From Candidatus Gastranaerophilales bacterium (lineage in GTDB: Bacteria > Cyanobacteriota > Vampirovibrionia > Gastranaerophilales > Gastranaerophilaceae): a stretch of DNA of 56,638 nt. Positions within the stretch are counted from its first letter, which is position 1, and every line of letters begins with the position of its first letter. Shown piece by piece: positions 1,946 through 55,848 of this stretch. The translations under genes and the position numbers were made by a program. The stretch lies in contig CALUYN010000011.1 in NCBI GenBank assembly GCA_944325025.1, positions 1 to 56,638 on the forward strand, read 5' to 3'. Under the pieces are notes generated by a model, which saw only the letters and a list, made by a program, of their open reading frames with translations, did no database searches and had not been told where the DNA came from.

Positions 1946-1990
1946 CCTCCCTTGTAAAGGGAGGGGAACCGCGCAAGCGGTGGAGGGATT
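1946..1990. repeat. 45-nt double-hairpin repeat, downstream copy
   Basis: This copy is identical to 1509-1553 except for one base between the two hairpins, and has the same orientation. Its last two bases overlap the 3' end of the convergent small membrane protein gene, so the repeat may have contributed that gene's stop region. Confidence 0.85.
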
Positions 1991-2327
1991 AACTATTTTT
2001 ATTTTTCGCAACGCCCGGTGCATCTTTTATAATAAACGGTCTTACAAAAGCGTATGTTCCGTAAAGTGACGATAAAAGCCCTGCAGCCATAGTGCCTTTA
2101 AAAAGTTTCGGATGCTTTGTTTTATTGACGAGTCCGCCTAAAGTTACAAGCGTTGTTCCTGCCATAATCCCCAGGTATCCTTTGAATATGGTTCTAGGCA
2201 CAACAATTGTATCTGTCATATCTGCTGAATTTTTTGTGCAGGAATGAAATTTTTCCAGGAATGTTTCTTTTTTATCTTGCCGAGTGCCGTTAAAATGTGT
2301 TAAGTTTGTGATTTTTGCTATTCTCAT
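1989..2327 (-). CDS. Small membrane protein with N-terminal FNG motif
   Basis: The product has 112 residues and no recognised family. It begins MRIAKITNLTHFNG, matching the N-terminal F-[KTN]-[GA] motif seen on several unrelated proteins in this window (F12-N13-G14). Two hydrophobic, Gly-rich segments at about 48-67 and 77-97 look like membrane helices. The gene starts twelve bases after the HTH regulator's stop codon, with AGGAAA as ribosome binding site in that gap, so the two form a likely operon. The 3' end runs into the downstream copy of the 45-nt repeat. Confidence 0.7.
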   Translation of the reverse strand: MRIAKITNLTHFNGTRQDKKETFLEKFHSCTKNSADMTDTIVVPRTIFKGYLGIMAGTTLVTLGGLVNKTKHPKLFKGTMAAGLLSSLYGTYAFVRPFIIKDAPGVAKNKNS

Positions 2328-2339
2328 TGCAGTTTTTTC

Positions 2340-2549
2340 CTAATCTTTGTCAGGTATATGCTCAAATATATCCTGAACTCTACAATTTAAAGCATTGCAC
2401 AATTTGTCTAAAGTTTCAAGTTCTATTGTTTTAGTTTTTTCATGATAAATTCTAAAGACTGTAACATGTGTTAATCCTGCTTCTCTTGCAACTTCAGCCA
2501 TGTTCATTCGTCTTCTGCCCATAATTTCAGATAATTTATTCTTAATCAT
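2340..2549 (-). CDS. XRE/Cro-type helix-turn-helix regulator
   Basis: This is a 69-residue single-domain DNA-binding protein. The sequence NMAEVAREAGLTHVTVFRIY forms the helix-turn-helix, and the following TIELETLDKLCNALNCRVQD is the usual second half of the XRE fold. It has no effector or peptidase domain, as in small phage- or plasmid-type Cro repressors and antitoxin-like regulators. It is divergent from the prepilin gene, with a 41-bp palindrome between them, and is followed by a small membrane protein. Targets are probably its own promoter and the prepilin promoter (inference from position). Confidence 0.85.
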   Translation of the reverse strand: MIKNKLSEIMGRRRMNMAEVAREAGLTHVTVFRIYHEKTKTIELETLDKLCNALNCRVQDIFEHIPDKD

Positions 2550-2588
2550 AAGAAATTTTTATCATTATAAGCCGGTTGTTGCAAAACG

Positions 2589-2629
2589 TATTATATATAT
2601 GTATAATAATATTATACATATATATAATA
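2589..2629. promoter_or_regulatory. Large AT palindrome, candidate operator with divergent promoters
   Basis: This is a perfect inverted repeat with 19-bp arms around the spacer AAT, made almost only of A and T. Each arm contains a TATAAT-like hexamer (plus strand at 2602-2607), so it can carry -10 boxes for both flanking genes. A Cro-type regulator is encoded on one side and a prepilin on the other. Confidence 0.55.
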
Positions 2630-2662
2630 TTATTTAACGATTATTTATAATAAGGAGGATTT

Positions 2663-3364
2663 ATGAAGAAAGCTTTCACTTTAGCAGAAGTTTTAATTAC
2701 ATTAGGTATTATCGGAGTTGTTGCTGCCATGACTTTGCCTGTTTTAATTAGTAAATACCGTGACAGACAGTATGTTGTTGGATTGAAAAAAGCCGTTGCT
2801 GTTATAGATAATGCGTACAGACTTGCTATTTATGAAAACGGAGGGAGCAATGATTTTGGCTATTTGGATGCTGAATATGTTCCTCTGCCTCCGGAAGAAG
2901 GTACAGGCGTTTATGATAAAAATGCAAGTCAAAATTCTGAAATCCTGTTACAGAAGTTTAGTAAACATCTTAAAATAATAAAAGACTGTGGCAAAGACAG
3001 AGGTGAGGAGTGTTTCCCAAAAACAATAAAATCTCCTTTTAGAGATAAAACCTGGGATCTTGTTACTATGCAGGGGAATGCAAGACGTTTTGTCGTTCTA
3101 AGTGACGGTATGAGCATAGGGCTGAATAAGTCTTTTGTATATATTGATGTAAACGGATTAAAAGGCCCGAATACTTTAGGTATTGATGTATTTCAGATTG
3201 CTCTTAATAATAATGGTATCGGATATTACGATGACGGTTCAGAAGGTACGTTAAAATGCTACACAAATGAATTTGCCTGTTCTGCATGGGTAATTATTAA
3301 TGACAATATTGATTATATTCACTGCTCTGATTTAAGTTGGAATGGAAAACATAAATGCAAATAA
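2663..3364 (+). CDS. Type IV prepilin-like protein
   Basis: The 233-residue product begins MKKAFTLAEVLITLGIIGVV, a type IV prepilin leader. The expected prepilin peptidase cut lies between A4 and F5, and Glu is at +5 of the mature protein. The hydrophobic N-terminal helix is followed by a globular domain with several Cys, mostly in the C-terminal half, that could form disulfides. It would be exported and assembled in a pilus or pseudopilus at the cell surface. Whether it is a major or minor subunit cannot be told, and no assembly genes (pilB, pilC, pilD) are nearby. GGAGG lies seven bases upstream of the ATG. The gene is divergent from the HTH regulator. Confidence 0.85.
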   Translation: MKKAFTLAEVLITLGIIGVVAAMTLPVLISKYRDRQYVVGLKKAVAVIDNAYRLAIYENGGSNDFGYLDAEYVPLPPEEGTGVYDKNASQNSEILLQKFSKHLKIIKDCGKDRGEECFPKTIKSPFRDKTWDLVTMQGNARRFVVLSDGMSIGLNKSFVYIDVNGLKGPNTLGIDVFQIALNNNGIGYYDDGSEGTLKCYTNEFACSAWVIINDNIDYIHCSDLSWNGKHKCK

Positions 3365-3401
3365 ATTAACTATTTTTTAATATTTAAAAGGTTATAACCA
3401 C

Positions 3402-3430
3402 TTGATTAGTTTTTTTGTTAATGATATAAA
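3402..3430 (+). promoter_or_regulatory. Probable sigma-70 type promoter of gap
   Basis: TTGATT (3402-3407) and TATAAA (3425-3430) are separated by 17 bases. The predicted start leaves a leader of about 30 bases containing AAAGGAAAC before the gap ATG. Confidence 0.55.
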
Positions 3431-3468
3431 AACCATGTGAGAGTTTTTATAAAAGAAAGGAAACACTT

Positions 3469-4473
3469 ATGGTAAATGTAGCAATTAACGGTTTTGGTAG
3501 AATTGGCCGTAATACTTTACGTGCAGCTATCAGAGAAGGTATTTTTGACAAAATTAATTATGTAGCAATCAACGACCCCGGTTTGAAACCTGCTGAAGCA
3601 GCTTTGTTATTCAAACACGATTCAGTTATGGGTAAATTTGATGGTACTGTTGAAGCTTATGAAGAAGGTATTATCGTAAACGGTAAAAAAATCAAATTCT
3701 TCGCAGAAAAAGATCCTGCTCAATTACCTTGGAAAGATTTAGGTGTAGAAGTTGTTGTTGAATCAACAGGTTTCTTCACAGATGCAACAAAAGCTCACGC
3801 TCACATTGATGCAGGCGCTAAAAAAGTTATTATTTCTGCTCCTGCAACAAATGAAGATATTACAATTGTTTTAGGTGTAAACGATAAAGAATACGATCCT
3901 GCAAAACACAATGTAATTTCTATGGCATCTTGCACAACTAACTGCTTGGCTCCTGTAGCTAAAGTTATCGATGAAAAATTCGGTATTGTAAAAGGTTTGA
4001 TGACAACTGTTCACTCTTACACAGGCGACCAAAGAATTTTGGATGCAGGTCACAAAGATCCTAGAAGAGCTAGAGCAGGTGCTTTGAACATTGTTCCTAC
4101 AAAAACAGGTGCTGCTAAAGCTGTTGCTCTTGTATTACCTCAATTGAAAGGTAAATTGGACGGTTTTGCAATGAGAGTTCCTACTCCTGACGTATCATTA
4201 GTAGACGTTGTATTTGAACTTTCTAAAGATGTTACTGTTGAAGAAGTTAATGCAGCATTAAAAGCAGGTGCTGACGGACACGTTCTTTGCTACACTGAAG
4301 AACCGTTAGTATCTTCTGACTACATCGGAACATCTCAATCATCAACTGTTGACGCTTTGTTAACTCGTGTAATGGGCGGCAATCAGGTTAAAATCATTTC
4401 TTGGTATGATAACGAAATGGGTTATTCTACAAGATTGGCTGAAACTACATTGATGGTTGCTTCAAAATTATAA
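3469..4473 (+). CDS. gap: Glyceraldehyde-3-phosphate dehydrogenase, type I
   Basis: GapA-type dehydrogenase of 334 residues, the usual length. It oxidises glyceraldehyde-3-phosphate to 1,3-bisphosphoglycerate in glycolysis. Visible are the Rossmann motif INGFGRIGR (6-14), Asp in VAINDPG that favours NAD over NADP, and the active-site Cys in ASCTTNCLAP near residue 152. The gene has its own promoter and terminator. It uses clearly more C-ending codons (AAC, GAC, TTC, CAC, TAC) than its neighbours, as expected for a highly expressed gene. Confidence 0.97.
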   Translation: MVNVAINGFGRIGRNTLRAAIREGIFDKINYVAINDPGLKPAEAALLFKHDSVMGKFDGTVEAYEEGIIVNGKKIKFFAEKDPAQLPWKDLGVEVVVESTGFFTDATKAHAHIDAGAKKVIISAPATNEDITIVLGVNDKEYDPAKHNVISMASCTTNCLAPVAKVIDEKFGIVKGLMTTVHSYTGDQRILDAGHKDPRRARAGALNIVPTKTGAAKAVALVLPQLKGKLDGFAMRVPTPDVSLVDVVFELSKDVTVEEVNAALKAGADGHVLCYTEEPLVSSDYIGTSQSSTVDALLTRVMGGNQVKIISWYDNEMGYSTRLAETTLMVASKL

Positions 4474-4490
4474 TTTGAAGTTTACAAATA

Positions 4491-4526
4491 AAAAAAGAGT
4501 CCTCTAGAAACGGGGACTCTTTTTTA
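4491..4526 (+). terminator. Intrinsic terminator of gap
   Basis: The core stem is GAGTCC (4497-4502) with GGACTC (4514-4519), extended by A/T pairs on each side and followed by a run of T. The loop is TCTAGAAACGG. Confidence 0.85.
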
Positions 4527-4590
4527 TTACTCAACCGGCTGATTGTAAAATTGTTAACTCCGAAAATAATTATTGTATGGAGGAAAAACA

Positions 4591-4782
4591 ATGCATATTT
4601 TAAAATTGATTACATTTATTTTAGTTATTATCGGTGCTTTAAACTGGGGGCTAGTAGGTATTTTTAATATTGACCTTGTGGCAATGATTTTTGGTGATAT
4701 GACATTATTATCCAGAATAGTTTATTCCCTTGTAGGGATAAGTGCAATTATATATGCAGTTCTGGCATACAAAGAACTATAA
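4591..4782 (+). CDS. DUF378 family small membrane protein
   Basis: The 63-residue protein has two predicted membrane helices. The sequence GALNWGLVGIFNIDLVA in the first half is the DUF378 (YuzA-like) hallmark, and LSRIVYSLVGISAI follows. The function of DUF378 is unknown. ATG 4591 is chosen because GGAGG lies seven bases upstream; an in-frame TTG at 4573 would begin before that site. It is convergent with the M16 peptidase gene, whose stop codon lies one base after this gene ends. Confidence 0.85.
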   Translation: MHILKLITFILVIIGALNWGLVGIFNIDLVAMIFGDMTLLSRIVYSLVGISAIIYAVLAYKEL

Positions 4783-4783
4783 A

Positions 4784-7594
4784 TTAGTCAGCCTGTAATG
4801 ATTTTAAGTAATTTTCGTTTGCTTTAAGCGTATTTTCTGTTGCAACAATTGAGTAAATCGGTTTGCCTGAAAAGACATAATTTGCTGTATTGTAAATATC
4901 ATCAACTGTAATAGAATCTATCATTTTGAGTGCTTCATTGTCACGTGAAATTCCGTACGGTGTGTTGAGGTTGTATAACAACCCGTCAGTTTGCGAACCA
5001 TGTGTATTATTCATATTTAAAATAGAATTTTTTAGATTTAATTTTGCGTTATTCAGTTCTTCTTCTGTTACTTTTTCGGTTTTAATCTTTTTGATATGTT
5101 TGTTAAAACCGTCGATTGATTTTTGTAAATTGTCATAGCTTATTTCATTAGTATCTTTATTTTCGGTGGTAGTGCCGATTTTTAGATAGAAAAGTCCTAT
5201 GTTATCGGTAATTTTAAAGTTTGAACGGACATGATATGCCAATTTTTGCTGTTCGCGCAGGTCATTAAACAATCTGGAAGATGCGTTGCCGCCGAGTATT
5301 GTATTTAAAAGTTCAAGACAGATATCATCTTTCAGGTTATTTCCTCTTCTGAATTTAAAAGCTTCAATGATTTCTGCCTGATTTTTATTGTCTATGTCCG
5401 TTAATACTTGTGTTTGTGTATTTGGAATGTATTTGTCAAGAAGTTCTTCCGGGCTATATACATTGAATTTTTTATAAGCGGCTATGCTATTGAACAGAGT
5501 ATCATTTAGTTCAGGCTTTTTGTTAAACGGTGCAGTAACTGCAATTGAGGCTTTTGAATTTGTCATAATAGAGTCATACAATCTTTTTACATCATCAAGA
5601 GTTAAGCTGTCCAATTCTTTTAAAAGCTCTGATTTTGATTTACCCTGAGGAAGATTTTTATAAATTTCAGTATCAAGTTTGTCAAATGCTGACTTTTCAG
5701 AAATAGAGATATTATCAATAATTCTTGATTTTACTTCGTTGAAAGTTTCTTGTGTAAATCTCGGGTTATCCAACAATTCCTTTATGGATTTAAGTGCTTT
5801 GTCCATATCTTCAGACGCAAATTTAGAATAAACTGTTACTGATTTGTTATTACTTTCAAAATTTGCATTTATACCTGATTTTTGAAGATCTTTATAGAAT
5901 TCTTCCTGATTTTTATTTAAAGTTCCCTCATTTAAAAGTTCATCCAATACAAGAACTGCTGCTAATTTATCTGTATTGTATCCTTCTGTTGAAAATTGCA
6001 TTTTGACATAGCAGTTGTCGGTTCTGCTGTTGTTGGTTACAATTTTAAAGTTGTTGTCCGGCATATTGTATTCTTTTACATTGCTTAAATCAATTGCTTC
6101 TTTTCTGCCGGTAAAAGATATACTTTTTGCATCGTTATAATTTTTGTTTATACTTTCAGCATTTGCAGATGATGGGTGAACAACTGTCACGGACGCTTTA
6201 TTTATATCAAGATATTTTTTTGCTGCATTAACAATATCATCAGCCGTCATTGACTTAATAATTTCCTGATAATTATTAAGGTAGGCTTCATTATTTTCTA
6301 AAAGGGCTGCTCCAATAGCATTGTTTGTTCTGAAAGAATGTTCAAATATAGATGAAAACTGGTTAAGCATACGTTTTTTTATAATCTGCATTTCATCATC
6401 TGAAGGCGGATTATTCGCGATATTTGCAACTTCATTAAATATTAGTTTCAGAACTTTTTCGGAATTTTCATCTGATGATTCTGCAATAAATATTAATGCT
6501 CTGCCGTCTTTCGGATTTGTGCTTATTTTTTCTTCTTCTGTATAAATAGATGCATTATACGGTTTTAACTTTTTGTTGATACGCGTGGTTGAGCCGCCGG
6601 ACAGTAGCTCCATTGCTGCTTCTGTGAAAATTAAGTCTTTAATATTTTGAGGTTCAGCACCGTTAAAGCCGACTGCGATATGCGAAGCTGTTGCTTTGTC
6701 TGATATAAAATCCTCTCTTACTGTTTTCTGAACAGGTACAAGTTTTTCAAAATTTCTTTGTCCTGATGGTTGTTTTTTAGATGTAAAGTATTTGGAAATT
6801 AATTTCATTGTTTCTTCTGGCTTTACATTTCCTGTGATAACCGTAACCATATTAGCCGGATAGTAGTTGTTGTTGTAGTAATTAACAACATCTTCGCGAG
6901 TTAAATTTGTTATGTTATCTGTTGTTCCGCCAATCATGTCTGTTGATGTGGTTTTAATTCCATATAAATTTTTAAGCATTTTATTAACAGCAAGATTTTC
7001 CGGATCAGATGTAATCATGTTGATTTCGGAGTTCACTATTCCCTTTTCTTTTTCAAGTTTGTCTGCGGCGAACAGTGGAGTTTCTAACATTGAGGCATGG
7101 ATTTTTATTTTATTTTCCAGATCCCCGTCATTTAAAAGGTTAGAACTTATATAATAATTGGTTTCTGCAAAGCCTGTTGATGCATTTGTTGAACCGCCCA
7201 TTTTATCAACCTGTTTGAAAAAATCTCCCTGTTCAAGCCCTTGCGAGCCGTTAAACAAATTATGCTCAATATAGTGGCTTATTCCGCGCAAGTTATCCGG
7301 TTCGTTCATTGAACCAGTATTAACATAAGTTCTTAAAACAGTTTCACCCTCCTGCGGAACAACAATTACTCTTTGACCGTTTGCAAGTTTGTAGCAATAG
7401 GCTTTTGTGTCGTAAGGGAAATTCATCTCGCCTGTTTTTGTATAGGCAATAGGAGTTTTTATTGCAAAATCAGGCTGTATATTTGATAATTGTTCAATTT
7501 GCGGATTTGTTTGAACTGTTTCGTTTCCCTTGAAAACCTGCTTGTTGCTGTATTGATAATTATTTACACTATTAATAGAATTTATTCTAACCAC
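4784..7594 (-). CDS. Two-halved M16 (insulinase-like) metallopeptidase with N-terminal FKG motif
   Basis: The 936-residue protein is built from two M16 units in tandem. The first half has the inverted zinc motif HYIEH (107-111) and a downstream Glu in KGIVNSEINM. The second half lacks HxxEH but keeps the M16C pattern SSRLFNDLREQQKLAYHV. M16 enzymes close a clamshell around peptide substrates. The start is GTG. The first 40 residues are an Asn/Ser/Gln-rich extension with VFKGN (F21-K22-G23), the motif shared with unrelated proteins here. No signal peptide is visible, although family members often act outside the cytoplasm. A shorter M16 protein lies at 34767-36095. Confidence 0.9.
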   Translation of the reverse strand: MVRINSINSVNNYQYSNKQVFKGNETVQTNPQIEQLSNIQPDFAIKTPIAYTKTGEMNFPYDTKAYCYKLANGQRVIVVPQEGETVLRTYVNTGSMNEPDNLRGISHYIEHNLFNGSQGLEQGDFFKQVDKMGGSTNASTGFAETNYYISSNLLNDGDLENKIKIHASMLETPLFAADKLEKEKGIVNSEINMITSDPENLAVNKMLKNLYGIKTTSTDMIGGTTDNITNLTREDVVNYYNNNYYPANMVTVITGNVKPEETMKLISKYFTSKKQPSGQRNFEKLVPVQKTVREDFISDKATASHIAVGFNGAEPQNIKDLIFTEAAMELLSGGSTTRINKKLKPYNASIYTEEEKISTNPKDGRALIFIAESSDENSEKVLKLIFNEVANIANNPPSDDEMQIIKKRMLNQFSSIFEHSFRTNNAIGAALLENNEAYLNNYQEIIKSMTADDIVNAAKKYLDINKASVTVVHPSSANAESINKNYNDAKSISFTGRKEAIDLSNVKEYNMPDNNFKIVTNNSRTDNCYVKMQFSTEGYNTDKLAAVLVLDELLNEGTLNKNQEEFYKDLQKSGINANFESNNKSVTVYSKFASEDMDKALKSIKELLDNPRFTQETFNEVKSRIIDNISISEKSAFDKLDTEIYKNLPQGKSKSELLKELDSLTLDDVKRLYDSIMTNSKASIAVTAPFNKKPELNDTLFNSIAAYKKFNVYSPEELLDKYIPNTQTQVLTDIDNKNQAEIIEAFKFRRGNNLKDDICLELLNTILGGNASSRLFNDLREQQKLAYHVRSNFKITDNIGLFYLKIGTTTENKDTNEISYDNLQKSIDGFNKHIKKIKTEKVTEEELNNAKLNLKNSILNMNNTHGSQTDGLLYNLNTPYGISRDNEALKMIDSITVDDIYNTANYVFSGKPIYSIVATENTLKANENYLKSLQAD

Positions 7595-7635
7595 ATTAAT
7601 ATAAAAACATGAACAAATAAAAAATTGCCTTTTTA

Positions 7636-8913: not shown

Positions 8914-8973
8914 ATCCCTTATCCTTTCATAAAGCTCTTTACTGATTTATTTTATCACAAACAGAATTTATTG

Positions 8974-10744: not shown

Positions 10745-10752
10745 AAAAAACC

Positions 10753-10935: not shown

Positions 10936-10944
10936 AATTTTCTC

Positions 10945-11853: not shown

Positions 11854-12906
11854 TTATCTTATTCTAACAGGATAGTCCTTTTTTATTTGCCATCCGTCAA
11901 ACATAATCAACAAGGCGCAAGTATTTGTTAATCCGACATTATTAGCCGGATTGCAATGTTTTACCATTTTTTCTCTGTCGTTATAGGCGTATCCTTCAGT
12001 ATATTCATCATTGTCATTATTGGTACCGAAAAAACCGGCAGGATAGAAATTTCCCATTCCAGAAGATCTCATGGAACTATTTTTTACTTCATAGTCAAGG
12101 AAGAAATAAAATAAATCAACACCGTCTTTATTAGGGCCTCTTAATCCATTTATGTCGCAAAATGTGTGTATTTGTTGTGTATTTCTGAAAAAGCATATTG
12201 TTCCGTCACTAAGTAAAATTTTCAGGTAAGTATTATTAAGTGTTGAATTTGGATACTCGATGTCAGCAGGGAATTCTGCTCCGTTTAAATAAGGTACAAG
12301 AGCTGTTTTAAACCAGTTAATTGTTGCTTGACCAACAATATCGTTATAGGGTATTGATGTCCAGGTATCATTTGCTTTGGAAAGATTAACAGCTTGATTC
12401 ATAGTTGAATAGAGCTTTTGAAGCTGTGATACAGTTTGTTTTTTCTTGTAATTGCTAACTAATGACGGTATGGTTAATGAGGCAACAACACCGATAATTC
12501 CGAGGGTGATGAGGACCTCAGCCAAGGTAAATGCGGCTCGTTTTTTTAGTGAAGGGTGAAGAGTGAAGCGTGAAGAGGATATTTTAACTTCCCTCCCTCG
12601 TGGGAGGGATTGAGGGAGAGGGTTCGTGTTATCCAGAATGTCTGATTGACCTCCGTGCTTCAGCATCTCACTATTTTGCGATTGCGGATCAGCTTTTCTG
12701 TCGGCAATGACGGAAACAGGTGCTTGTTCAGAAGAATAGACGACCGGATGGCAGGAAGGCAGGCTAAAATTAGATGCAAAGATGCAAGGATGCATAGAGG
12801 CAAAGCTATTATCAATAATAAATTTTGTCCATGTTTTACCTAAATAGCTATAAACGAAAATAGCCTGACCTCCTGACCTCTTGACATCCGGCCTTCCGTC
12901 TAGCAA
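11854..12906 (-). CDS. Type IV prepilin-like protein behind a poly-C tract
   Basis: The recognisable part is a prepilin: KKRAAFTLAEVLITLGIIGV (Phe codon at 12531-12529), then a globular domain of about 200 residues ending in HCNPANNVGLTNTCALL. In front is an open frame of about 125 codons with low-complexity, repeat-derived DNA (GTGAAG-type repeats at 12551-12575, GCATC-type repeats near 12780). The frame has only a TTG start at 12906. An ATG with a good AGGAG site lies at 12977, separated by a run of ten C. At this length the ATG frame stops at TAG after 17 codons; with eight or eleven C it would read through into the pilin. The gene may be phase-variable, a sequencing slip, or started elsewhere. 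Confidence 0.7.
   Translation of the reverse strand: MLDGRPDVKRSGGQAIFVYSYLGKTWTKFIIDNSFASMHPCIFASNFSLPSCHPVVYSSEQAPVSVIADRKADPQSQNSEMLKHGGQSDILDNTNPLPQSLPRGREVKISSSRFTLHPSLKKRAAFTLAEVLITLGIIGVVASLTIPSLVSNYKKKQTVSQLQKLYSTMNQAVNLSKANDTWTSIPYNDIVGQATINWFKTALVPYLNGAEFPADIEYPNSTLNNTYLKILLSDGTICFFRNTQQIHTFCDINGLRGPNKDGVDLFYFFLDYEVKNSSMRSSGMGNFYPAGFFGTNNDNDEYTEGYAYNDREKMVKHCNPANNVGLTNTCALLIMFDGWQIKKDYPVRIR
12591..12608. repeat. CCCTCCC/GGGAGGG hairpin inside the pilin leader region
   Basis: A 7-bp stem around TCGT resembles the first hairpin of the 45-nt repeat near 1.5 kb. It is followed at about 12640-12665 by a degenerate version of the GTCA-stem-CTTGT-stem-TCT hairpin found at three other sites. 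The N-terminal extension of this pilin frame is therefore built largely from dispersed repeats. Confidence 0.55.
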
Positions 12907-12952: not shown

Positions 12953-12974
12953 CAATTTTCAGCTTCTTATCTTC

Positions 12975-13509: not shown

Positions 13510-14910
13510 TTATTTTTTACGGCGTTTTGTTACTTTAACCCCTAGTTTACTTGGTTCAATATTCCTTCCGCTTTCATTGAAAAATGTCTTAACCATTTCT
13601 ACTGCTTTTTTGATAGGGATATTGCCGCTGTATGCTTCTTCAAAAATTTCTTTAAAATAAGTTTTTTGATTTTTAATATCAAATTGTTTTATAAATTCAA
13701 CAAGACTGTTGTTTGAACGCGTGTTATTATCATCTGCGCAGGCAAGTGCAAAATTCCCTAAATCATTAGAGCCGCCGAGGGATTTTGGATGTATATGCTC
13801 TATTGTTACAATAGAAGGCCTTAAAACGTTATATCCGATTGCATCTGATGCAGATAGTTCATGTTTTGTAATGAAGGCATTAACGCTTGTTCTTGAAGTA
13901 GGGAGTTTGTCAACTATTGCATTTATTTTTGCCCTGAGCTGTTCATTGGGCATTCCTGTCAGTGTTTCGTTTAAATCGTATTTAAATGCTTTGTTACTGA
14001 ATTTTATTTTAACCGGGCGCTGTTCTAGTGTGTTGATTGCAATATCACATAGATACAAAATATCTTTTCTGTTAAGAATTTCACCGTACTGTCTGATTTT
14101 ATTTATTATGATTAGCTGTAAATCTTTTTTTGTTAAACTTTTTTTATTAACGTCGCGGGTTTCTGTTATTTGTAATATTTTATCAATAAATTTTGGAGTC
14201 AAAGGCTCTTTTTCTTTTTTAAATAAAGGGTGTGTAAGAGGTTCTGTGAGCTGTGCTATTTTTCTTGCCATATATTCATCTTTTATAGTGACTCCTATAC
14301 GTGACATTTTATATTTAAATTCTTTTCCGCTGAATTCACTCGGAATATAAACTTTTTCTTCTAGCCTTAGTCTTGAAACTCTCAGCAATTCTTTAAATTT
14401 TGTTTTATATCCGTGCGGCATTTCACTTGCGAGCGCAGATAGCTCCTTGAATATTGGTTTTTGTTCTTCAAGTAATTCTTTATTTGCTTTCGGATACATT
14501 ATTTTTATGGCTTCGGATAATCTTATGTCAGGCTTATCAAATGCCAGAATAGCAACGCGTTTTACAAATTCTTTTTCTGTAGGATGGAGATATTCAATAT
14601 AATTAAACATTTCCTGTACAAACTTTTTTATGGAACCGGAAAATATCCCGCTGCTTTTTAACCGGTTTACAATCTTATCACTCAATAGAGGTCTTCCGCA
14701 GTAAATGCAGTGTATTTTTCTCTGATATGCAAGATTGCGAAATGCGGATGCACTGTTAATAGCAGTAAATGACGGCTGGCTTTTGACAAAAATATCGCCA
14801 GTATTGTGAAAGTTGTTTACAGGATACCTGTAAACAGAATAATCATACTGATTATTCTTATTTACTCCTAAAGGCTTTATAAAATTATTTAGAACAGATG
14901 CAATCCTCAT
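13510..14910 (-). CDS. CxxC plus HNH nuclease-like protein with N-terminal motif
   Basis: The 466-residue product has a CIYC zinc-ribbon-like pair (C68, C71), a long helical middle, and a C-terminal HNH core: EHIHPKSLGGSNDLGNFALA (from E371) followed by CADDNN. HNH proteins of this type cut or nick DNA, but the target is unknown. The frame begins at ATG 14925. ATG 14910 is preferred because the product then begins MRIASVLNN and reaches PSFTA (F48-T49-A50), the N-terminal motif shared with other proteins here, and a -10-like TATTTT ends six bases upstream. Neither ATG has a ribosome binding site. It lies 50 bases downstream of a paralogue of the same architecture. Confidence 0.8.
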   Translation of the reverse strand: MRIASVLNNFIKPLGVNKNNQYDYSVYRYPVNNFHNTGDIFVKSQPSFTAINSASAFRNLAYQRKIHCIYCGRPLLSDKIVNRLKSSGIFSGSIKKFVQEMFNYIEYLHPTEKEFVKRVAILAFDKPDIRLSEAIKIMYPKANKELLEEQKPIFKELSALASEMPHGYKTKFKELLRVSRLRLEEKVYIPSEFSGKEFKYKMSRIGVTIKDEYMARKIAQLTEPLTHPLFKKEKEPLTPKFIDKILQITETRDVNKKSLTKKDLQLIIINKIRQYGEILNRKDILYLCDIAINTLEQRPVKIKFSNKAFKYDLNETLTGMPNEQLRAKINAIVDKLPTSRTSVNAFITKHELSASDAIGYNVLRPSIVTIEHIHPKSLGGSNDLGNFALACADDNNTRSNNSLVEFIKQFDIKNQKTYFKEIFEEAYSGNIPIKKAVEMVKTFFNESGRNIEPSKLGVKVTKRRKK

Positions 14911-14960
14911 AGGGTAAAAATACATCTGATTAAAAATTTTTGCTAGTTTATTAAAAAATG

Positions 14961-15929
14961 TTACGTAAAATACAGCTGCGAAATATCAAGATCAATGTAC
15001 CTATCTGATAGCCAGTATAAAACTTCTCTTAAATTTTCAATATATTCTTTGTTGCATATGCCTTTTTTACATAAAGAAATCAATTTGTCAGCCTGAATTT
15101 GAGCGTTCTTTGGCATATAAGGATTTTCTTCTATTTGTATTGGTATAGGGTAGTGATGACGCGAATTATTACAATAAGTGCATTCTAATGCAAAATTAAG
15201 CGAGTTGCTCAGCCCATGCATACATTTAGGGGTAAGATGTTCAAAAGTTCCAACTGACGGATGTATAAGGTTTAGTGCTATAATCTCAGGTCTTTTTCTG
15301 GCATTTTTTACAACAAAAGCACATACCTCATCGCTTGAACGCGGTAATCTGCGTGCAATTTTTATAATCTCTTCTTTAATTGATTTGTTTTCTAGATTTC
15401 TGATTATATTTTTTAATTTATGGACAAAAATTCGTCTGGAAAATGGTTTGTGCGGTTCGGGGTCAAAAATTATATCGTTGGTTTTAATCATAAGCTTTCT
15501 AAGTTGTCTTGCCATTTTTTTAGGAAGTATTCGTCTATAAAAGCTGATCTTATTAAATATAGAACTTTGAATTTTTACCAGAGCAAGTTCATGTATATCT
15601 TTTTTCATTAATAGAAGTTCTTGAAAATTTTTATCAGGATATTTTGTAGACATTGTTTTAAACATATTAAACACCTGTCTTTCAACAGGATGCATAATAT
15701 TTTCAAACGGTTCAAGGAGTTTTATGGCTTCAGATGCCTTTTGGCAAAGTTCTTTTCTTCCGCTTAAATACATATAAATATCCGGATGCAGCATTTCTTT
15801 GCCGCAGCACAGGCATGGTATGCGGTAATTAAAGAGGTTTTTTAACTCCTTTCTTGTAAGGGGAATTTGGGGTAGTTCATTTTCAAATGTCTTTTTAGTT
15901 TTTTTTAATTTCTTCTCCATACGTACCAT
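14961..15929 (-). CDS. CxxC plus HNH nuclease-like protein, diverged paralogue
   Basis: The 322-residue product has the same order as its neighbour: a CLCC pair (C39, C42), a segment with IMHPVERQVF corresponding to LHPTEKEFVK of the neighbour, and a C-terminal EHLTPKCMHGLSNSLNFALE (from E230) with CTYCNN. The second HNH Asn/His positions have partly changed (NNSRHH), so catalysis is uncertain. It lacks the Asn-rich motif-bearing N-terminus. A TTG at 15944 is in frame but sits directly after a TATAAT box (15950-15945), so a start at ATG 15929 or 15920 is more likely. There is no Shine-Dalgarno sequence. The gene follows tsaB by 41 bases. Confidence 0.75.
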   Translation of the reverse strand: MVRMEKKLKKTKKTFENELPQIPLTRKELKNLFNYRIPCLCCGKEMLHPDIYMYLSGRKELCQKASEAIKLLEPFENIMHPVERQVFNMFKTMSTKYPDKNFQELLLMKKDIHELALVKIQSSIFNKISFYRRILPKKMARQLRKLMIKTNDIIFDPEPHKPFSRRIFVHKLKNIIRNLENKSIKEEIIKIARRLPRSSDEVCAFVVKNARKRPEIIALNLIHPSVGTFEHLTPKCMHGLSNSLNFALECTYCNNSRHHYPIPIQIEENPYMPKNAQIQADKLISLCKKGICNKEYIENLREVLYWLSDRYIDLDISQLYFT

Positions 15930-15970
15930 CAGGATTTTGTTCAATTATATTATTCCCGATTTTAAATATT

Positions 15971-22473: not shown

Positions 22474-24015
22474 ATGATAACGCCCGTAAATGCTTTACAG
22501 TCTAATTTACTATTTAAGGCAATTCAAACAAAATTGCCGGACGGTAAAACAGAAGCTAATCAGCAGGTGAGGACAAGCATTTTTTATATAAACGATTTTC
22601 ACGGGAAATCAATAAATGTTGAAAGAACAATAACCGCATCACGAGCTTTTGACCATTTTGAGCCTTCACAGCCGACTGATAAATTAAAATTTTCATCGGG
22701 TGATATTCAGCTTGGAGAACCTGTTGAGGCAAATAAAGTCATGGTTGAAGCGCAAAATATAATGGGTATCATGGCATCTGCTATGGGCAACCATGAATTT
22801 GATATGCAAGATCATATATCTGAGCTTATTCCGCATATGGGATATAAAATGCTTGCCTGCAATATTAATATTAAACCTGATAACCCGCTTTATAAAAAAG
22901 TTGAAAAATCTTATATTCAGGAAATTAATGGGCACAAGTACGGTGTAATCGGCATAAGCCCTGTTGATTTGTTCTCAAGAATAAAGTACGGCAAGATTTT
23001 TCAAGAGTTGAATGTTGACGGGATTGAAAATACAATAAAAGATGTTCAATCAGAAGTTGACAATTTGAAAAAGCAGGGGGTAAATAAAATAATCCTTTTA
23101 TCCCATATCGGCTTTGGTTATGATCAAAGGATTGCACGGGAAACAGAAGGTATTGATATAATTCTTGGCGGGCATTCGCATAACCTTGTTGAAGATGTAA
23201 AGCCTGAATATAATTTATTGTATTCAAAAGCCGGCGAACCTGTGGTCATAACTCAGGCAGGACGTGACGGCCGATATTTTGGAATTTTGAATGTTGAGTT
23301 TAACCCTAAAGGTATTTTAACTAAAATTCAAAATAACGTGACAAGTACCAGAGGTTTTAAACGTAATGTGCCGGCAAGACATGTGTTTGAACAGATAGTT
23401 GGAAAACCTCGTGTTGTAGGACAAATTAAATCAGCCCCTCCGCCTTTGGTTAATGATTCTATTGAACCGAGCGGTCATGCAAACTTTATGTGCGACTGTA
23501 TGAGAGAGGAACTCGGAACAGATATTGCATTGTTTGGTTCTGCAACAATACGCGGATATTTTGAATCAGGAAACCTTGATACAAGATGGCTTGAAGATAT
23601 ATCTCCGTTTAAAAATAAAATGGTAGTAACTGATTATTCGGAAAAGCAAATAGTTGATGCATTAAGGGTTTCTGCGCGTTCAATGGTAAATACAAATAAT
23701 AAACCGGGAATTCTTCACGTTTCAGGATTAAAATATACAATATCAAAGGACGGGCAGTTAAGAAGTGCGTCTTTTATTGATAAAAACGGAAAAGAAACTA
23801 CTATTGATATTAACAATCCCAGAACAGATAAGTTTTATAAAACAGCTTTGACAGATTACTATTGTCAGGGACATGACGGTTTTACAATGCTGAAAAATTA
23901 TGATAACGCTATAAAATACGATTTTGATATAACAAAGTGTATTGAAAATTACTTTAAAAAACACACAGGATCTGTTGAAATAAAAGATGACGGCAGAATA
24001 AAAATTGTTGATTAA
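22474..24015 (+). CDS. 5'-nucleotidase / UshA-like metallophosphoesterase with N-terminal FKA motif
   Basis: The 513-residue product has the calcineurin-like phosphoesterase core with metal motifs NDFHG, SAMGNHEFDMQ, LLSHIGFG and GGHSHN, followed by a 5'-nucleotidase C-terminal domain (NFMCDCMREELGTDIALFG, then GFTMLKNYD). Such enzymes hydrolyse nucleotides or related phosphoesters, usually in the periplasm or at the cell surface. Here no signal peptide is visible. Instead the protein opens MITPVNALQSNLLFKA, with F14-K15-A16 matching the shared N-terminal motif. ATG 22456 is also in frame, but the ATG at 22474 has AAGGGA at suitable spacing. A strong terminator overlaps the stop codon. Confidence 0.85.
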   Translation: MITPVNALQSNLLFKAIQTKLPDGKTEANQQVRTSIFYINDFHGKSINVERTITASRAFDHFEPSQPTDKLKFSSGDIQLGEPVEANKVMVEAQNIMGIMASAMGNHEFDMQDHISELIPHMGYKMLACNINIKPDNPLYKKVEKSYIQEINGHKYGVIGISPVDLFSRIKYGKIFQELNVDGIENTIKDVQSEVDNLKKQGVNKIILLSHIGFGYDQRIARETEGIDIILGGHSHNLVEDVKPEYNLLYSKAGEPVVITQAGRDGRYFGILNVEFNPKGILTKIQNNVTSTRGFKRNVPARHVFEQIVGKPRVVGQIKSAPPPLVNDSIEPSGHANFMCDCMREELGTDIALFGSATIRGYFESGNLDTRWLEDISPFKNKMVVTDYSEKQIVDALRVSARSMVNTNNKPGILHVSGLKYTISKDGQLRSASFIDKNGKETTIDINNPRTDKFYKTALTDYYCQGHDGFTMLKNYDNAIKYDFDITKCIENYFKKHTGSVEIKDDGRIKIVD

Positions 24016-42463: not shown

Positions 42464-43189
42464 TTACTTTTTATATTTTGACAGAAGATTTGAATTGTGA
42501 GGAACATCTTGTGATTTTATTTCTTCTTTATGTTCTTCAATTTTGTTATCATCTTCATGTTTGTCATCGTCGTCTTTTTCTACTTTGTTTTCTGCATTTT
42601 TACTATCAAATTTAGCATCCATTTTGTTTTTAACTTTTTGAGCAAGCGGTGTAGCAATAAATGGAACGATTACACGTTTTGCAAGAATTGTTGCCGCTGC
42701 AAGTTCAGTTATAAATTTGAAAGTATCAAGGCAGTCTTTTCTTATTTTATCATATTCTTTTCTTAAAGAAAGTTTTCTAGAAACGGTTTCACCTGCTTCT
42801 CTTTGTTGTTTTCTTATTTGCGTAGCAATTGATTTGAATATTTGTCCGCCTTTATCAAATGATTTTTGGAAAAGTTTGTTGAACAGTGGTTCATTAAGTT
42901 TTCTCATTCCAAAGAATAAACCAAGTTGTGCAACAATCATTAATATACCATTTGTTAAGTCAAGAGCTGCAACGAATTTTCTTTTATCTTCAGGTATTTT
43001 CTCGTTGTTTAAACTTTGATTAACATACATATAACATCCGATACCGTCTTTCCCGACAACTGATGCTATTGTTGAATAAGCAATTGCTTTTTCCGGATCT
43101 TTTTTAAAGAAATTGCAGCATTTTTGCACCGGTTTAAAGTTTGTAATACCGCCTATGATTTTAGAGCTTACAGAGCCGACAGAAGCCAT
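42464..43189 (-). CDS. Membrane protein with acidic tail, partner of the gene before it
   Basis: The 241-residue product has probable membrane segments near 90-115 and 165-185 and a strongly charged C-terminal tail of about 45 residues (KDDDDKHEDDNKIEEHKEEI). The N-terminus MASVGSVSSKIIGGITNFKP is Ser/Gly-rich with NFKP, perhaps a variant of the shared motif. Its ATG overlaps the preceding gene's TAA by one base (TAATG), so the two are translationally coupled. No family recognised. Confidence 0.7.
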   Translation of the reverse strand: MASVGSVSSKIIGGITNFKPVQKCCNFFKKDPEKAIAYSTIASVVGKDGIGCYMYVNQSLNNEKIPEDKRKFVAALDLTNGILMIVAQLGLFFGMRKLNEPLFNKLFQKSFDKGGQIFKSIATQIRKQQREAGETVSRKLSLRKEYDKIRKDCLDTFKFITELAAATILAKRVIVPFIATPLAQKVKNKMDAKFDSKNAENKVEKDDDDKHEDDNKIEEHKEEIKSQDVPHNSNLLSKYKK

Positions 43190-44637
43190 TAGTCGTCACC
43201 TCCGTTCTTAACTTTCTGGGCATCATCTTTTTTCTTTCCTGAAAGTTTAGGGAAGCAAAGATCCATAAATCTCGGATATACCCAGTTTAGAGCAGTACAA
43301 GTTATCGGTAGTGTGATACAGAGGCCAATTGCGATTTTCGAAATTTGGTTAAAGCCTTTATATCTTTTTTCAATAACTTTTTTGTAGCCTTTTGTTATAT
43401 CTTTATATATTTTTTTCATTAAATCTTCGACATTTGTTTGGAAAGTTGCTGTTTCTTGGAATTTTTTATCAAGTCTGAAGTTTGTATTATCATAGTGACA
43501 AAATTCTGCAACTTTATTTATTGTTGATTTAATTGTATTTTCTGTAGCACTATTAACATCTTTTATTTTACTTGCTTCTAAGTTCGCAATTATTTTATCT
43601 AGTTCTTTATTGGTAGCTTGCATAGCTTTCAAATAATTTTCAGGAGTAAAGTTGCCGTTGCAAGCTTTTCTTACAGTTTCAATACGTTCAAGAGTCCGCT
43701 GACATCTGCTGGCCCTGAGATTTTCAGGAGCATTTATAATTTCTTCAAGAATAGTTTTTACATCTTGATTATCAGTATTTAAACTTGCTTTTTTCAGCTT
43801 TTCAGCAATCTCATTTCCTGATTCTGGAAGCTCTTTAAATAATTCTTTGAATACGTCTTCATTTTCTACAAGTATTTGGGCGCGTTGTTTATAGAATTTA
43901 AGACCTTCGTCGCTAGTTTTTAGATTTTTTGCATCTTCTATATAAGAATCGATTGTATCGTTAACAATTTCGGCTGTTGTTTTATTCTCAACTATGCGTT
44001 CGCCAATTTTGATTTTCCCTGTCTGTCTTAAGTTTTCTGCAGTTTGTCCAATCTGCATCTGTAATTTTTCATTTACACGTTTATCAAGTTCTTGCTTAAA
44101 TGCCTCTTTGTTTTCAAATTTAAGCCCTTCTTTTTTCATTTCTTTTTTGACTTGTTTTTCAACATAAGATTGTTTGCTTAATGTACTTTGATCTAAGCTT
44201 ATCCATAAATTTTTAGCATATTTGGGATTATTAAATAGTATTTCCAAACCTTTATCTATAGGTTTTAATATACTTGTTTGGATCAAAACTGCCAAAACTG
44301 CTGAAACAGGCTGCCTCATTGCTGTGTATTTTTTTGTATTTTCTACATCTTCTTTTTGTTCTTTTGTGGCATCTTTAGGAGCTTTAACAAACGGGTTGTA
44401 AGCGATAAATATAGGTGCAACCGCCCCTGTACCTAAAGCTGTTATTAATATACCGCCGAGCTCTCCTTTTAACCATTTAAATTTTTCCATTACTTTAATT
44501 GCTGTTTTATTAGGCAATTGTTCCATAATTTCTTTGTTAATGTTCATGCCGGTAAAATTGGGTGTTCCACCGGAATTTCGACTGTTTAATGGCAGTCTTT
44601 GCGCAGAATAATTTTGTTTAATTGTTTCGACTTTCAT
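43189..44637 (-). CDS. Large helical membrane protein with N-terminal FTG motif
   Basis: The 482-residue product opens with an Asn/Ser/Gln-rich stretch ending in TPNFTGMNI (F28-T29-G30), the shared N-terminal motif. A hydrophobic segment (GGILITALGTGAVAPIFIAY) lies near 57-76, and another (ISKIAIGLCITLPITCTALN) near the C-terminus. Between them are about 330 residues of charged, largely alpha-helical sequence, probably coiled coil. It is first in a two-gene operon with the smaller membrane protein. No known family; the coupled pair is probably a complex (inference). Confidence 0.75.
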   Translation of the reverse strand: MKVETIKQNYSAQRLPLNSRNSGGTPNFTGMNINKEIMEQLPNKTAIKVMEKFKWLKGELGGILITALGTGAVAPIFIAYNPFVKAPKDATKEQKEDVENTKKYTAMRQPVSAVLAVLIQTSILKPIDKGLEILFNNPKYAKNLWISLDQSTLSKQSYVEKQVKKEMKKEGLKFENKEAFKQELDKRVNEKLQMQIGQTAENLRQTGKIKIGERIVENKTTAEIVNDTIDSYIEDAKNLKTSDEGLKFYKQRAQILVENEDVFKELFKELPESGNEIAEKLKKASLNTDNQDVKTILEEIINAPENLRASRCQRTLERIETVRKACNGNFTPENYLKAMQATNKELDKIIANLEASKIKDVNSATENTIKSTINKVAEFCHYDNTNFRLDKKFQETATFQTNVEDLMKKIYKDITKGYKKVIEKRYKGFNQISKIAIGLCITLPITCTALNWVYPRFMDLCFPKLSGKKKDDAQKVKNGGDD

Positions 44638-46352: not shown

Positions 46353-46402
46353 AATCCCTCTTTAATTATATAATAAAAAGAAAAATTTAAAAGAGGATAG
46401 TT

Positions 46403-47347: not shown

Positions 47348-47396
47348 GACGTTATAAAATGTATAGAGATTATTTATAAATAAGGTATTTTTATAT

Positions 47397-50476: not shown

Positions 50477-50490
50477 GAGTTATTTTGTGA

Positions 50491-50496
50491 TATATT
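50491..50496 (+). promoter_or_regulatory. Probable -10 box for a leaderless PadR gene mRNA
   Basis: TATATT ends six bases before ATG 50503, the same geometry as at radA, prfB and nanE. No Shine-Dalgarno sequence is present. Confidence 0.4.
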
Positions 50497-50502
50497 TATT
50501 AT

Positions 50503-52279: not shown

Positions 52280-52292
52280 GAGAGGCTTTTTA
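52264..52292. terminator. Intrinsic terminator between convergent genes
   Basis: A 12-bp perfect stem (AAAAAGCCTCTC with GAGAGGCTTTTT) surrounds ATAA. It overlaps the DUF512 gene's stop codon and lies five bases before the convergent glnA stop. Confidence 0.9.
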
Positions 52293-52296
52293 ATAA

Positions 52297-53661: not shown

Positions 53662-53691
53662 ACAAACCTCTTTCCTTAACACTGTATACAA

Positions 53692-53965
53692 ATTTAAATT
53701 ATCTTTCTATTACAATACTTTTTATGCAAAAGGTCAAGTATTTTATGTATAAAGATTAAATAAAGAAAAAAGAAAAATTATCGTGAATTTGGATGTTTTT
53801 CTAAAAATAGTGTTAAATATATGAATTTTTCGGGTATATATTAATTGGAAACAGGGATATTAAGTTTAGAGAATTAAAAACACGCATTTTCTGAAACAGT
53901 TTACAACCGGCGGTTTAAAGATATTTGTAAAGAAATGTAACGAAATAAATAAGATATAGCAATTA
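53692..53965. other. AT-rich stretch upstream of glnA without recognised genes
   Basis: About 270 bases of very AT-rich DNA with no supported reading frame, expected to hold the glnA promoter. A TATACT hexamer lies near its right end, on the plus strand, pointing to the possible small RNA that follows. Nothing else stands out. Confidence 0.4.
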
Positions 53966-53984
53966 TATACTCAAAAAATACTTT

Positions 53985-54153
53985 ATTAATATGTAAGCAA
54001 TAAACAATAAACATTATGAGGAATTAAATAAACACGAGACATAAACTACACACTAACTATTTACACTACCTACTACACACTAACCTTCTACACACACGAG
54101 GAATTACGTAAAAAGAATTCCGAACTCTATCTTTCAGATAGGGTTTTTTTTTT
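53985..54153 (+). ncRNA. Possible small RNA with a 59-nt G-free segment and terminator
   Basis: The segment has no supported reading frame. From 54039 to 54097 the plus strand contains no G at all and is mainly A and C. ACTACACACTAAC occurs twice exactly (54045-54057 and 54072-54084). The G-free part is bracketed by two copies of GAGGAATTA (54018-54026 and 54098-54106). A terminator (9-bp stem plus ten T) ends it. This looks like an unstructured RNA with repeated pairing motifs. The 5' end is a guess, and no known RNA family was matched. Confidence 0.4.
54124..54153 (+). terminator. Intrinsic terminator of the possible small RNA
   Basis: ACTCTATCT (54124-54132) pairs with AGATAGGGT (54136-54144), with one T-G pair, around TTC. 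Ten T follow. No protein-coding gene lies within several hundred bases upstream on this strand, so it marks a non-coding transcript. Confidence 0.8.
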
Positions 54154-54660
54154 AGGACGAGCAGAGGCAGGAGAAATACTATGTATTTCGACAGTCGAAC
54201 AAGCATAAGCGAAAATCGCATTTTTCGCTTTGATTGTGAGCGGTGCCGTTTAATGCGAGTCCGTTGTGCTACGCACGTAGGTACAACTAGTGCCGCTCGA
54301 CCCGCGACTTAGATGTTGTGAAAAACTTGTACAATCAAAACTAAAAAAGGAGCGTGCTGCTCGATCCGCTATAATTCCCCTCTTTTGGGAGAGGGAGTAA
54401 ATGAAAGTCTTCCTTCCATTATTAGGGAAGAATAAGAGGAGGGGTAACAATTACTACCCACCCCAGTCCGTCATAATCAGGGAGGGTGTTCATGCAACTC
54501 ACTTCTTAAAAGATGATAAATTAAGCGAGAAGGTATTAATCAAAAGACAGACAATCCGTCTGGTGCCATGTCATTGCGCACTTGTTGCGCAATCTCTTTA
54601 CCGTTCAGACAGTACCCGTTTTTTGGGGGTATTGTTTCGTTAAGCAGTAATTATTAAAAC
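54154..54660. repeat. Structured, comparatively GC-rich intergenic repeat cluster
   Basis: About 500 bases with no supported gene. It contains a 9-bp-stem hairpin at 54207-54230 (AAGCGAAAA/TTTTCGCTT), an imperfect nested fold from GAGCGG (54239-54244) to CCGCTC (54294-54299), purine- and pyrimidine-rich runs like CCCCTCTTTTGGGAGAGGGA near 54377, and the CTTGT-loop hairpin at 54570-54595. Its base composition differs from the flanking DNA. It looks like an accumulation of dispersed repeats. Confidence 0.5.
54570..54595. repeat. Conserved-loop hairpin repeat, copy 3
   Basis: GTCA, stem ATTGCGCA/TGCGCAAT around loop CTTGT, then TCT. Flanks, loop and length equal those of copies 1 and 2, while the paired stem bases are different. 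Confidence 0.8.
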
Positions 54661-54759
54661 TATTATGTAATAAATTGTAAAGGTAGATTTGAAAATAGCA
54701 AATTTTTTTATTTTCCTGTTTTAATAAAAATATAGGGTTAAAACGTAGAAAGGTATATT

Positions 54760-55848
54760 GTGATAAATTCGGTATCTCCTGTTAATGTAAATAAAGTTGC
54801 ATTTAAAGCTGAAATTCCCGAGCACAAATTAGAAGAAAAAGAATCTGAAAAACAGAGCAGTAAGAGCTGGATGCTCTGGACAGGTTTGGCTGCTCTTGGT
54901 GCTGTAGGTATTTATCTGGCTACAAGAGGGAAAAAAGGTTCTGAAACTGTTGAAAAAACTTCCGAAGCAGGACAAAATATTGCAGCTTCAGCATCAGAGG
55001 CTGTTAAAGATCAAGCTGCAAAAGTTTTGGATAAACTGCCTTCAAGAAAAGAAGTTTTGGAATCTTTAGGTGTAAAACTTAACGATGAAAAACTTTTAAC
55101 TGTTATGAAAAAAGGTGCTGATGGAAAAGAAGTTGAACAGCTTTATACCGGCACTCATTCATATACGGCAAGAAATGGTGTAAATATTGAAGAATATGTT
55201 GAAGATGGCATTGTTCGAGCCAGAACTATGTCTACTCAAAAAACTATAGACAATCCTGTTATAAAAAATTATGAATATTATCATGGACAAAATCTAAGAG
55301 GAATTAAAACTTTTAAAGATAATAGAAGGGCAGTAACATTTACTTTAAAAAATCAAAAAGCATTACAGGATTTGCGTGCATCTTTAAAATATACGCCTAA
55401 AACAGAAGCAGAAATTAAAGCGTTAAATGAGCGCGGTATTAAATATGAAGTTGTTGAAGAAATTACAAATTTCGGACACCATGGTGACAGGAAAAATCTG
55501 AAAGAAATTTATACTTATCCGGAAAATTATCCTATCAAGACAAAAGAAGTATATTATGGTGACAGGCATTGGACTTCTAACGAAGGAAAAGAAATCACAT
55601 TGACATTTAGGGAGCCCCAGCAGACATGGAAGCCTCATTACAAAGCAGATGGTTATAAGCTTGATATCAGAAATCATGGGTTTACATCAGAGCTTTTGGG
55701 CGGATATAATTTAGAAAGATTTGAAAATTTATATGATACGAGTGTTATACCATTTGATAGTAAGGCTGAGGCATATAAAGAAATTATGGAAGTTTTGAAT
55801 GAAGAATATTCAACAGATGCTCTTAAGCTAATTCGATATGGTAAATAA
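54760..55848 (+). CDS. Single-pass membrane protein with N-terminal FKA motif
   Basis: The 362-residue product starts at GTG with GAAAGG upstream. It opens MINSVSPVNVNKVAFKAEIP, with F15-K16-A17 matching the shared N-terminal motif. A charged linker leads to one membrane helix (SWMLWTGLAALGAVGIYLAT, about 37-56), then an Ala/Glu/Lys-rich helical stretch and a mixed alpha/beta domain of about 250 residues with many Tyr (for example ISDKAE-free, YYGDRHWTSNEG near 268). No known family. A hairpin with a short T-run follows. Confidence 0.72.
   Translation: MINSVSPVNVNKVAFKAEIPEHKLEEKESEKQSSKSWMLWTGLAALGAVGIYLATRGKKGSETVEKTSEAGQNIAASASEAVKDQAAKVLDKLPSRKEVLESLGVKLNDEKLLTVMKKGADGKEVEQLYTGTHSYTARNGVNIEEYVEDGIVRARTMSTQKTIDNPVIKNYEYYHGQNLRGIKTFKDNRRAVTFTLKNQKALQDLRASLKYTPKTEAEIKALNERGIKYEVVEEITNFGHHGDRKNLKEIYTYPENYPIKTKEVYYGDRHWTSNEGKEITLTFREPQQTWKPHYKADGYKLDIRNHGFTSELLGGYNLERFENLYDTSVIPFDSKAEAYKEIMEVLNEEYSTDALKLIRYGK

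Follow-up and report, generated by a model that had tools for sequence, protein, structure and literature searches.

Six proteins with different bodies, encoded on one 56,638-nucleotide stretch of DNA from a Candidatus Gastranaerophilales bacterium, carry the same short motif near the N-terminus. The question this locus raises is whether the motif belongs to a signal shared by otherwise unrelated proteins and, if so, what that signal might do. The stretch, called the window throughout, is contig C11 (G000:C11:1-56638) of a genome of 1.76 Mb in 43 contigs, and the genome belongs to a family (f1) that we take to be the Gastranaerophilaceae. An earlier note had pointed to six stretches of the form F-[KTN]-[GA], and all six are present where it placed them: at F12 of a small membrane protein (1989-2327), F21 of an M16 peptidase, F48 of an HNH protein (start 14910), F14 of a 5′-nucleotidase-like protein (start 22474), F28 of a helical membrane protein (43189-44637) and F15 of a further membrane protein (54760-55848). 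We are highly confident that a conserved N-terminal leader, longer than this motif and ending in a box around phenylalanine, is real. The analysis that follows establishes the leader, its conservation in three protein families, the disorder predicted for two of the proteins, and the presence of export-apparatus genes in the same genome. The leader is probably a sorting tag, and an export function is put forward tentatively.

The literal motif and the leader behind it

The earlier note supposed that F-[KTN]-[GA] would be more frequent at N-termini than composition predicts, and in that literal form the supposition fails. Within residues 8-57 the motif occurs in 27 of 373 proteins; internal windows contain it in 97 of 1660 cases, which predicts 21.8, and shuffling of the same 373 N-termini yields 20.9 ± 4.4. 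Larger sets give 27/721 (p = 0.67) and, among relatives, 9/354 (p = 0.79). The literal motif was dropped as a statistical feature, and it is a refined box, described below, that exceeds expectation. These and later counts use gene calls from our own simple caller, which include some false open reading frames, and non-random samples: stretches from the window genome are mostly its larger contigs, and those from relatives are contigs matched in an earlier search.

A recurrent architecture was first spotted by reading many N-termini and was then tested with orthologues. The leader is polar and rich in Asn, Gln, Ser and Pro, often begins M-x-[VI]-x-x-[VI], and ends close to the folded body in what we call the F-box, with the consensus [PVTQI]-[SANT]-F-[KTGRQ]-[GSNA] (the commonest letters in 96 leaders at positions -2 and -1, F, +1 and +2). 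Five orthologue families were compared, namely the M16, 5′-nucleotidase, helical and HNH proteins of the window and a membrane protein encoded elsewhere in the same genome (L014:233-2164, here the L014 family, with matches in 56/60 genomes). The best 30 or so loci of each family were taken, and the founder sequence from the window genome is present in every set but that of M16. Only the part ahead of the conserved core was kept as leader, and leaders more than 70% alike or lacking a recognisable core were dropped, which reduced the L014 family from 30 to 29, the helical family from 30 to 28, HNH from 29 to 25, M16 from 63 to 32 and the 5′-nucleotidases from 29 to 27. Each leader was scored for F-x-[GASN], where x is none of D, E, P, L, F, W, M or Y, against a null of 5000 shuffles.

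The box is present in 27 of 29 L014-family leaders (shuffles: mean 11.6, sd 2.6, maximum 21), in 27 of 28 helical-family leaders (mean 9.9, sd 2.4, maximum 19) and in 26 of 32 M16 leaders (mean 8.6, sd 2.4, maximum 18). In these three families the signal is strong; in HNH leaders it is weaker and suggestive (16/25; mean 11.4, sd 2.1, maximum 19), and in 5′-nucleotidase leaders it stands at chance (4/27; mean 3.4, sd 1.4, maximum 8), on which account the 5′-nucleotidase was rejected as a carrier. The nine HNH misses comprise five paralogues without such a leader, three that by eye end in F-G-I, and one truncated by our own core rule, which also cut short one L014-family leader; both truncated leaders were scored as misses. 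A first count in the L014 family had been contaminated by a conserved stretch of the body and is replaced by the leader-only count given here. In whole-protein alignment the L014-family phenylalanine is invariant (29/29), and F28 of the window protein 43189-44637 is at least 90% conserved among 28 aligned homologues. Six sampled homologue pairs were usable, and four of them have F-x-[GAS]. A near-invariant phenylalanine across 41 hand-picked unrelated proteins is a product of their selection and was discounted as evidence. The earlier note had expected its motif to be kept between orthologues with conserved bodies: this holds for 43189-44637 and for M16, more weakly for HNH, and fails for the 5′-nucleotidase. 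Among its six proteins two are clearly carriers, two probably are, the 5′-nucleotidase is at chance level, and the single homologue found for 1989-2327 shows only FIS.

The remaining parts of the leader are looser. The distance from the start to the phenylalanine varies, with F at residues 14-50 in the L014 family, and among pattern-matching proteins of three families Val or Ile stands at position 3 in 59/69 and at position 6 in 54/69. M16 (29/32) and the 5′-nucleotidases (24/27) fit no more than a looser start rule. In composition the leaders are enriched approximately 2.5-fold in Asn, 2.4-fold in Gln, 1.8-fold in Ser and 1.7-fold in Pro and depleted in Leu (0.5), Asp (0.5), Glu (0.4) and Gly, in a set in which a few L014-family segments contain body sequence. 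In AlphaFold models pLDDT stays below 50 over residues 1-31 in the 43189-44637 protein, whose first helix is at residue 33, and over residues 1-34 in the L014 protein, whose first helix is at 37. Since predicted disorder ends just before the first helix in both models, the F-box would lie at the border between leader and body. Foldseek searches with these two models returned no solved fold at E ≤ 0.001.

Frequency and spread across lineages

The refined F-box [PVTQI][SANT]F[KTGRQS][GSNA] is one of four patterns tried together, and the families that shaped it are also represented in its test samples. Within the N-terminal 62 residues it is found in 31 of 818 proteins of the window genome, where internal windows give 27 of 3009 (p = 6.6e-8) and C-terminal ones 7 of 573, and in relatives in 22/727 versus 31/2705 internally (p = 6e-4). 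The other three patterns at p < 0.05 are enriched in the window genome in one case and in relatives in two, leaving two unenriched in the former (p = 0.19 and 0.18) and one in the latter (p = 0.12). The 31/818, set beside a background of about 0.9%, would mean that perhaps 2-3% of the proteins carry the leader. A bipartite rule that combines start box, polar linker and F-box selects 14/818, 5/354 (p = 1.3e-3) and 8/373 (p = 8e-5) in samples of the family. The first refined rule, fitted by eye on the window genome, selects 15/721 there, compared with 9/3200 internal methionines (p = 2e-6), and gives a trend only in four further genera (4/373, p = 0.12).

Whether the leader is specific to this lineage, as the earlier note suggested, depends on how strictly it is defined. 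Other orders show no enrichment of the strict F-box (5/344 versus 12/1296 internally, p = 0.28). Looser leader rules are enriched there, with 6/344 (p = 0.006) and 11/344 versus 8/1347 internal starts (p = 3e-4), as are the first refined rule, slightly (3/344 versus 1/1387, p = 0.03), and the bipartite rule (2/344 versus 0/1347 internal starts, p = 0.04). Tests conditioned on a polar leader give weak signals. Because looser rules find an excess in other orders too, confinement of the leader to the family is unproven.

Proteins that carry the leader

The bodies behind the leader are diverse. Among 41 candidate carriers, picked partly by eye, Pfam recognises 24 families; HNH occurs in three proteins, and single cases include M16, an RNase_T exonuclease, an amidohydrolase, a TatD-like protein, an acyltransferase, an S-adenosylmethionine decarboxylase and others. 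AAA, PLD and glycosyltransferase proteins are additional carriers. A loose leader rule, which lets in false positives, collects 72 proteins, none with three or more transmembrane (TM) segments and 19 with one or two, and the latter share is significant in comparison with 455 controls that have polar N-termini (p = 0.003). By a crude rule a Sec-like start occurs in 1.4% of the 72 as against 15.7% of 1473 other proteins, a difference partly built into the polar rule. In another genus four adjacent genes fit the bipartite rule (L220:6816-13881) and encode an AAA ATPase, an RNase_T exonuclease, a PLD protein and an uncharacterised protein. The leader would offer a first handle on which of the lineage's many uncharacterised proteins are sorted together.

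A candidate export apparatus

A FliP-type export gate is present in 40/40 relatives, as a single copy in 25/25 genomes of the window's genus and as two copies in 13/15 genomes from the order's other families. A class-wide sample likewise has one copy in 19/19 genomes of the family, eight of them from other genera; no FliP was found in 15/15 family-f2 genomes, 2/2 family-f7 genomes and three others of the class. A sister family has one of its copies in an operon with FlhA, NCBIfam supplying both names; by eye the genes between FliP and FlhA resemble fliQ, fliR and flhB. Its other copy belongs to a separate cassette. The gate of the window genome is 77% identical to this cassette copy and 48% to the sister family's flagellar FliP, which, together with the relatives that hold two copies, indicates a gate distinct from the flagellar one.

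Other components accompany it. FlhA-type matches occur in 40/40 relatives, each of which has an extra match to the C-terminal half alone, and an ATPase C-domain is found in 39/40. FliN-, FliO-, FliQ- and FliR-like genes adjoin the gate in the window genome (NCBIfam, all below curated cut-offs), and FliF-, FliE- and FliH-like genes lie on its contig C8 (over Pfam cut-offs), where the FliF-like protein also carries the flagellar M-ring C-domain PF08345. The equivalog models score the gate as flagellar-type, and we therefore name the system a second flagellar-type export apparatus and not an injectisome. The gate cassette itself (L234:14014-17650, contig C16) includes a FliQ-like protein extended by a long C-terminal tail (162 aa), along with a FliN/SctQ-like protein whose tail is acidic. 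On contig C26 L250:3110-4588 encodes a 492-aa protein made of the FlhA C-terminal domain only, which Pfam matches over positions 321-655 of 657. Two proteins that begin alike (MGLVNSQIR.. and MGMAASQAR..) are encoded on the FliF/FliE/FliH-like stretch (L039:11459-14350); they have no Pfam match and are possibly structural parts of the candidate exporter.

Function of the leader

We propose that many unrelated proteins of the family, soluble or with one or two TM segments, carry a modular, disordered leader at the N-terminus. Its parts would be an Ile/Val start, a polar linker of free length and the F-box close to where the folded body begins, and it would act as a recognition tag whose putative receptor reads the phenylalanine and the small residue two places on. 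The machine most likely to do so would be the lineage's second, flagellar-type type III export apparatus, with the leader as an N-terminal secretion or chaperone-binding signal, such that tagged proteins would exit the cell without a Sec peptide. The link between leader and apparatus is circumstantial, and we hold the export reading as a tentative one. The N-termini of type III substrates have the same polar, Leu- and acid-poor bias as the leader. A leader gene with the box NFNG adjoins the gate cassette in 3/3 loci read in the family, all of one genus, and in the window genome a leader-like membrane protein with SFNG and a GH77-like protein with a start box adjoin or lie near the gene for the FlhA C-domain. 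If the leader is an export signal, these bacteria own a secreted protein set, and a working exporter is encoded by genes possibly taken for remains of a flagellum. A more specific scenario, which we regard as rather unlikely, would have the flagellum lost, a second dedicated type III-type exporter kept and a motif-bearing leader evolved as its address label, with the stand-alone FlhA C-domain protein as a soluble receptor.

Known type III systems offer both likenesses and differences. Type III N-terminal signals and chaperone-binding segments resemble the leader in being disordered, Asn/Ser/Gln/Pro-rich and Leu- and acid-poor, in occurring on unrelated proteins and in lacking a Sec peptide, and a type III-type gate is encoded in the same genome as the leaders. 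To our knowledge classical type III signals have no conserved motif, whereas the leader closes with a conserved F-box. Transit peptides of organelles with a Phe motif are likewise polar N-terminal peptides with a key phenylalanine on unrelated proteins; compared by description only, they match the leader in these respects and differ in that no organelle is known here. In Chlamydia trachomatis glycogen enzymes are reported to be secreted by type III (PMC4829429). Normally cytosolic carbohydrate enzymes can be substrates there, and a glycosyltransferase has an F-box leader here; the phylum is another one, and export in our case would be a prediction. For this order, partial flagellar gene sets have been described in six out of nine genomes and interpreted as non-functional (PMC4040986). 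Their genes are possibly the ones discussed here; the FliP described here differs in being closest to the separate second copy of sister families and not to the flagellar one. The words 'type III' are absent from the main text of PMC4040986, PMC5877343 and PMC4451040. No description of the leader or of a type III system in this lineage was found in the literature searched, with PMC7203096, PMC7018530, PMC11319675 and PMC9868349, which combine the lineage name with 'type III secretion', outside the comparison.

Several observations weigh against export. Some carriers look cytosolic, such as the glycosyltransferase L223:15277 and the S-adenosylmethionine decarboxylase L076:15502, although in Chlamydia cytosolic-looking enzymes can be type III substrates (PMC4829429). 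The lack of polytopic leader proteins is not significant in comparison with the 455 polar-N-terminus controls (p = 0.09), and tagged genes are adjacent no more often than by chance (5 pairs, p = 0.2). Among models of the gate TIGR01103 (fliP) passes its cut-off and TIGR01102 (yscR) does not, and NF009438 (EscR/YscR/HrcR) passes for this gate but equally for a flagellar FliP. In the sister family the cassette has no NFNG gene next to it (two loci, one genus). Other orders of the class have the gate too, and a sample of 344 of their proteins shows no excess of the strict F-box; a gate-bearing sister-family sample, small in size, has one strict F-box in 76 proteins.

Across orders the box does not seem to track the gate, which would fit an intracellular tag. 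The F-box would then dock to a cytosolic or membrane hub (a scaffold, condensate or compartment) and gather proteins inside the cell, without export. Carriers such as the glycosyltransferase, a GH77-like protein (start box only) and AAA proteins, the carriers with one or two TM segments, and the form of the leader itself, a polar linker with a single aromatic-glycine box, all agree with this possibility, which we consider somewhat doubtful; against it, several carriers resemble nucleases, peptidases or phospholipases, and no hub candidate came up, no search having been aimed at one. The box could also mark a processing site, with a protease cleaving near F-x-G and freeing the leader. It lies near the leader/body border at a fairly regular distance before the conserved core, 10-13 residues in 24/27 L014-family leaders and 16-20 in 21/26 M16 leaders; the conservation of the start suggests recognition of the leader as a whole, and processing is an unlikely account. 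The earlier note's idea of a sorting, anchoring or processing signal is supported in part, by the survival of the F-box in diverged leaders and by predicted disorder in the two modelled proteins.

Chance matches to a permissive pattern are a very unlikely explanation overall: the unenriched motif of the earlier note, the 5′-nucleotidase result and the two refined patterns unenriched in the window genome agree with it, and the conservation of the F-box in three families and the N-terminal enrichment of its strict form contradict it. Chance is rejected for the L014, helical and M16 families and still holds for single proteins. A constraint on the 5′ end of the mRNA or on the start codon, by which A-rich codons would yield Asn, Gln, Ser and Lys, fits the polar composition and the enrichment of loose rules in other orders and is highly improbable, leaving as it does both the conserved phenylalanine in diverged leaders and the excess of the strict F-box at N-termini unexplained.

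Leaders and other N-termini in the window

The M16 peptidase (4784-7594, minus strand; Pfam PF00675/PF05193) has its leader at 7526-7594, minus strand, residues 1-23, with a GTG start and the ending VFKG. Most close relatives compared have no further in-frame ATG, GTG or TTG upstream of this start. M16 matches, paralogues included, occur in 117/117 genomes of the family, and one paralogue (L002) begins, by eye, with a Sec-like signal peptide instead. The leader of the helical membrane protein (43189-44637, minus strand), at 44548-44637 on the same strand, comprises residues 1-30 and ends in NFTG; the protein has hydrophobic segments near residues 60 and 432, matches in 39/60 family genomes and, in Pfam, nothing beyond weak hits that stay under the curated cut-off. 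For the HNH endonuclease-like protein (13510-14910, minus strand; PF01844, with matches in 54/60 family genomes) the leader is 14761-14910, minus strand; with the start placed at 14910 it covers residues 1-50, and it ends in PSFTA. Two HNH-type paralogues are adjacent at 13510-15944, of which only the first has the leader, and one relative has 11 matches.

The single-TM protein 54760-55848 has a leader at 54760-54810, plus strand (residues 1-17, ending in AFKA). Its matches are limited to 4/60 genomes, the window genome included; the one distant leader read (L154) retains PAFKG, and PAFKG is also found in a protein of similar build, L009:10950-11948. A possible leader (MRIAKITNLTHFNG) of the small membrane protein 1989-2327 lies at 2286-2327, minus strand, and its start fits; the sole homologue in the sample lacks a clear F-box. 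The 5′-nucleotidase N-terminus with FKA (22474-22521, plus strand) is outside the signal. Matches to this protein occur in 60/60 family genomes, and its relatives instead often begin in a way like MI[TN]P[VI].

Type IV pilin-like segments (KKAFTLAEVLITLGIIGVVA or similar) are present in the window at 2663-3364, which matches the prepilin domain N_methyl (PF07963), and at 11854-12906, recognised by eye; none of the six proteins matches PF07963 at E ≤ 0.001. Long N-terminal extensions occur in the open reading frames 11854-12906 of the window, L023:18327-19193 and L040:16607. Those of 11854-12906 and L023 contain similar repeats (SLPSCHP.. and SLPSCPPS..) and are perhaps translated intergenic repeats.

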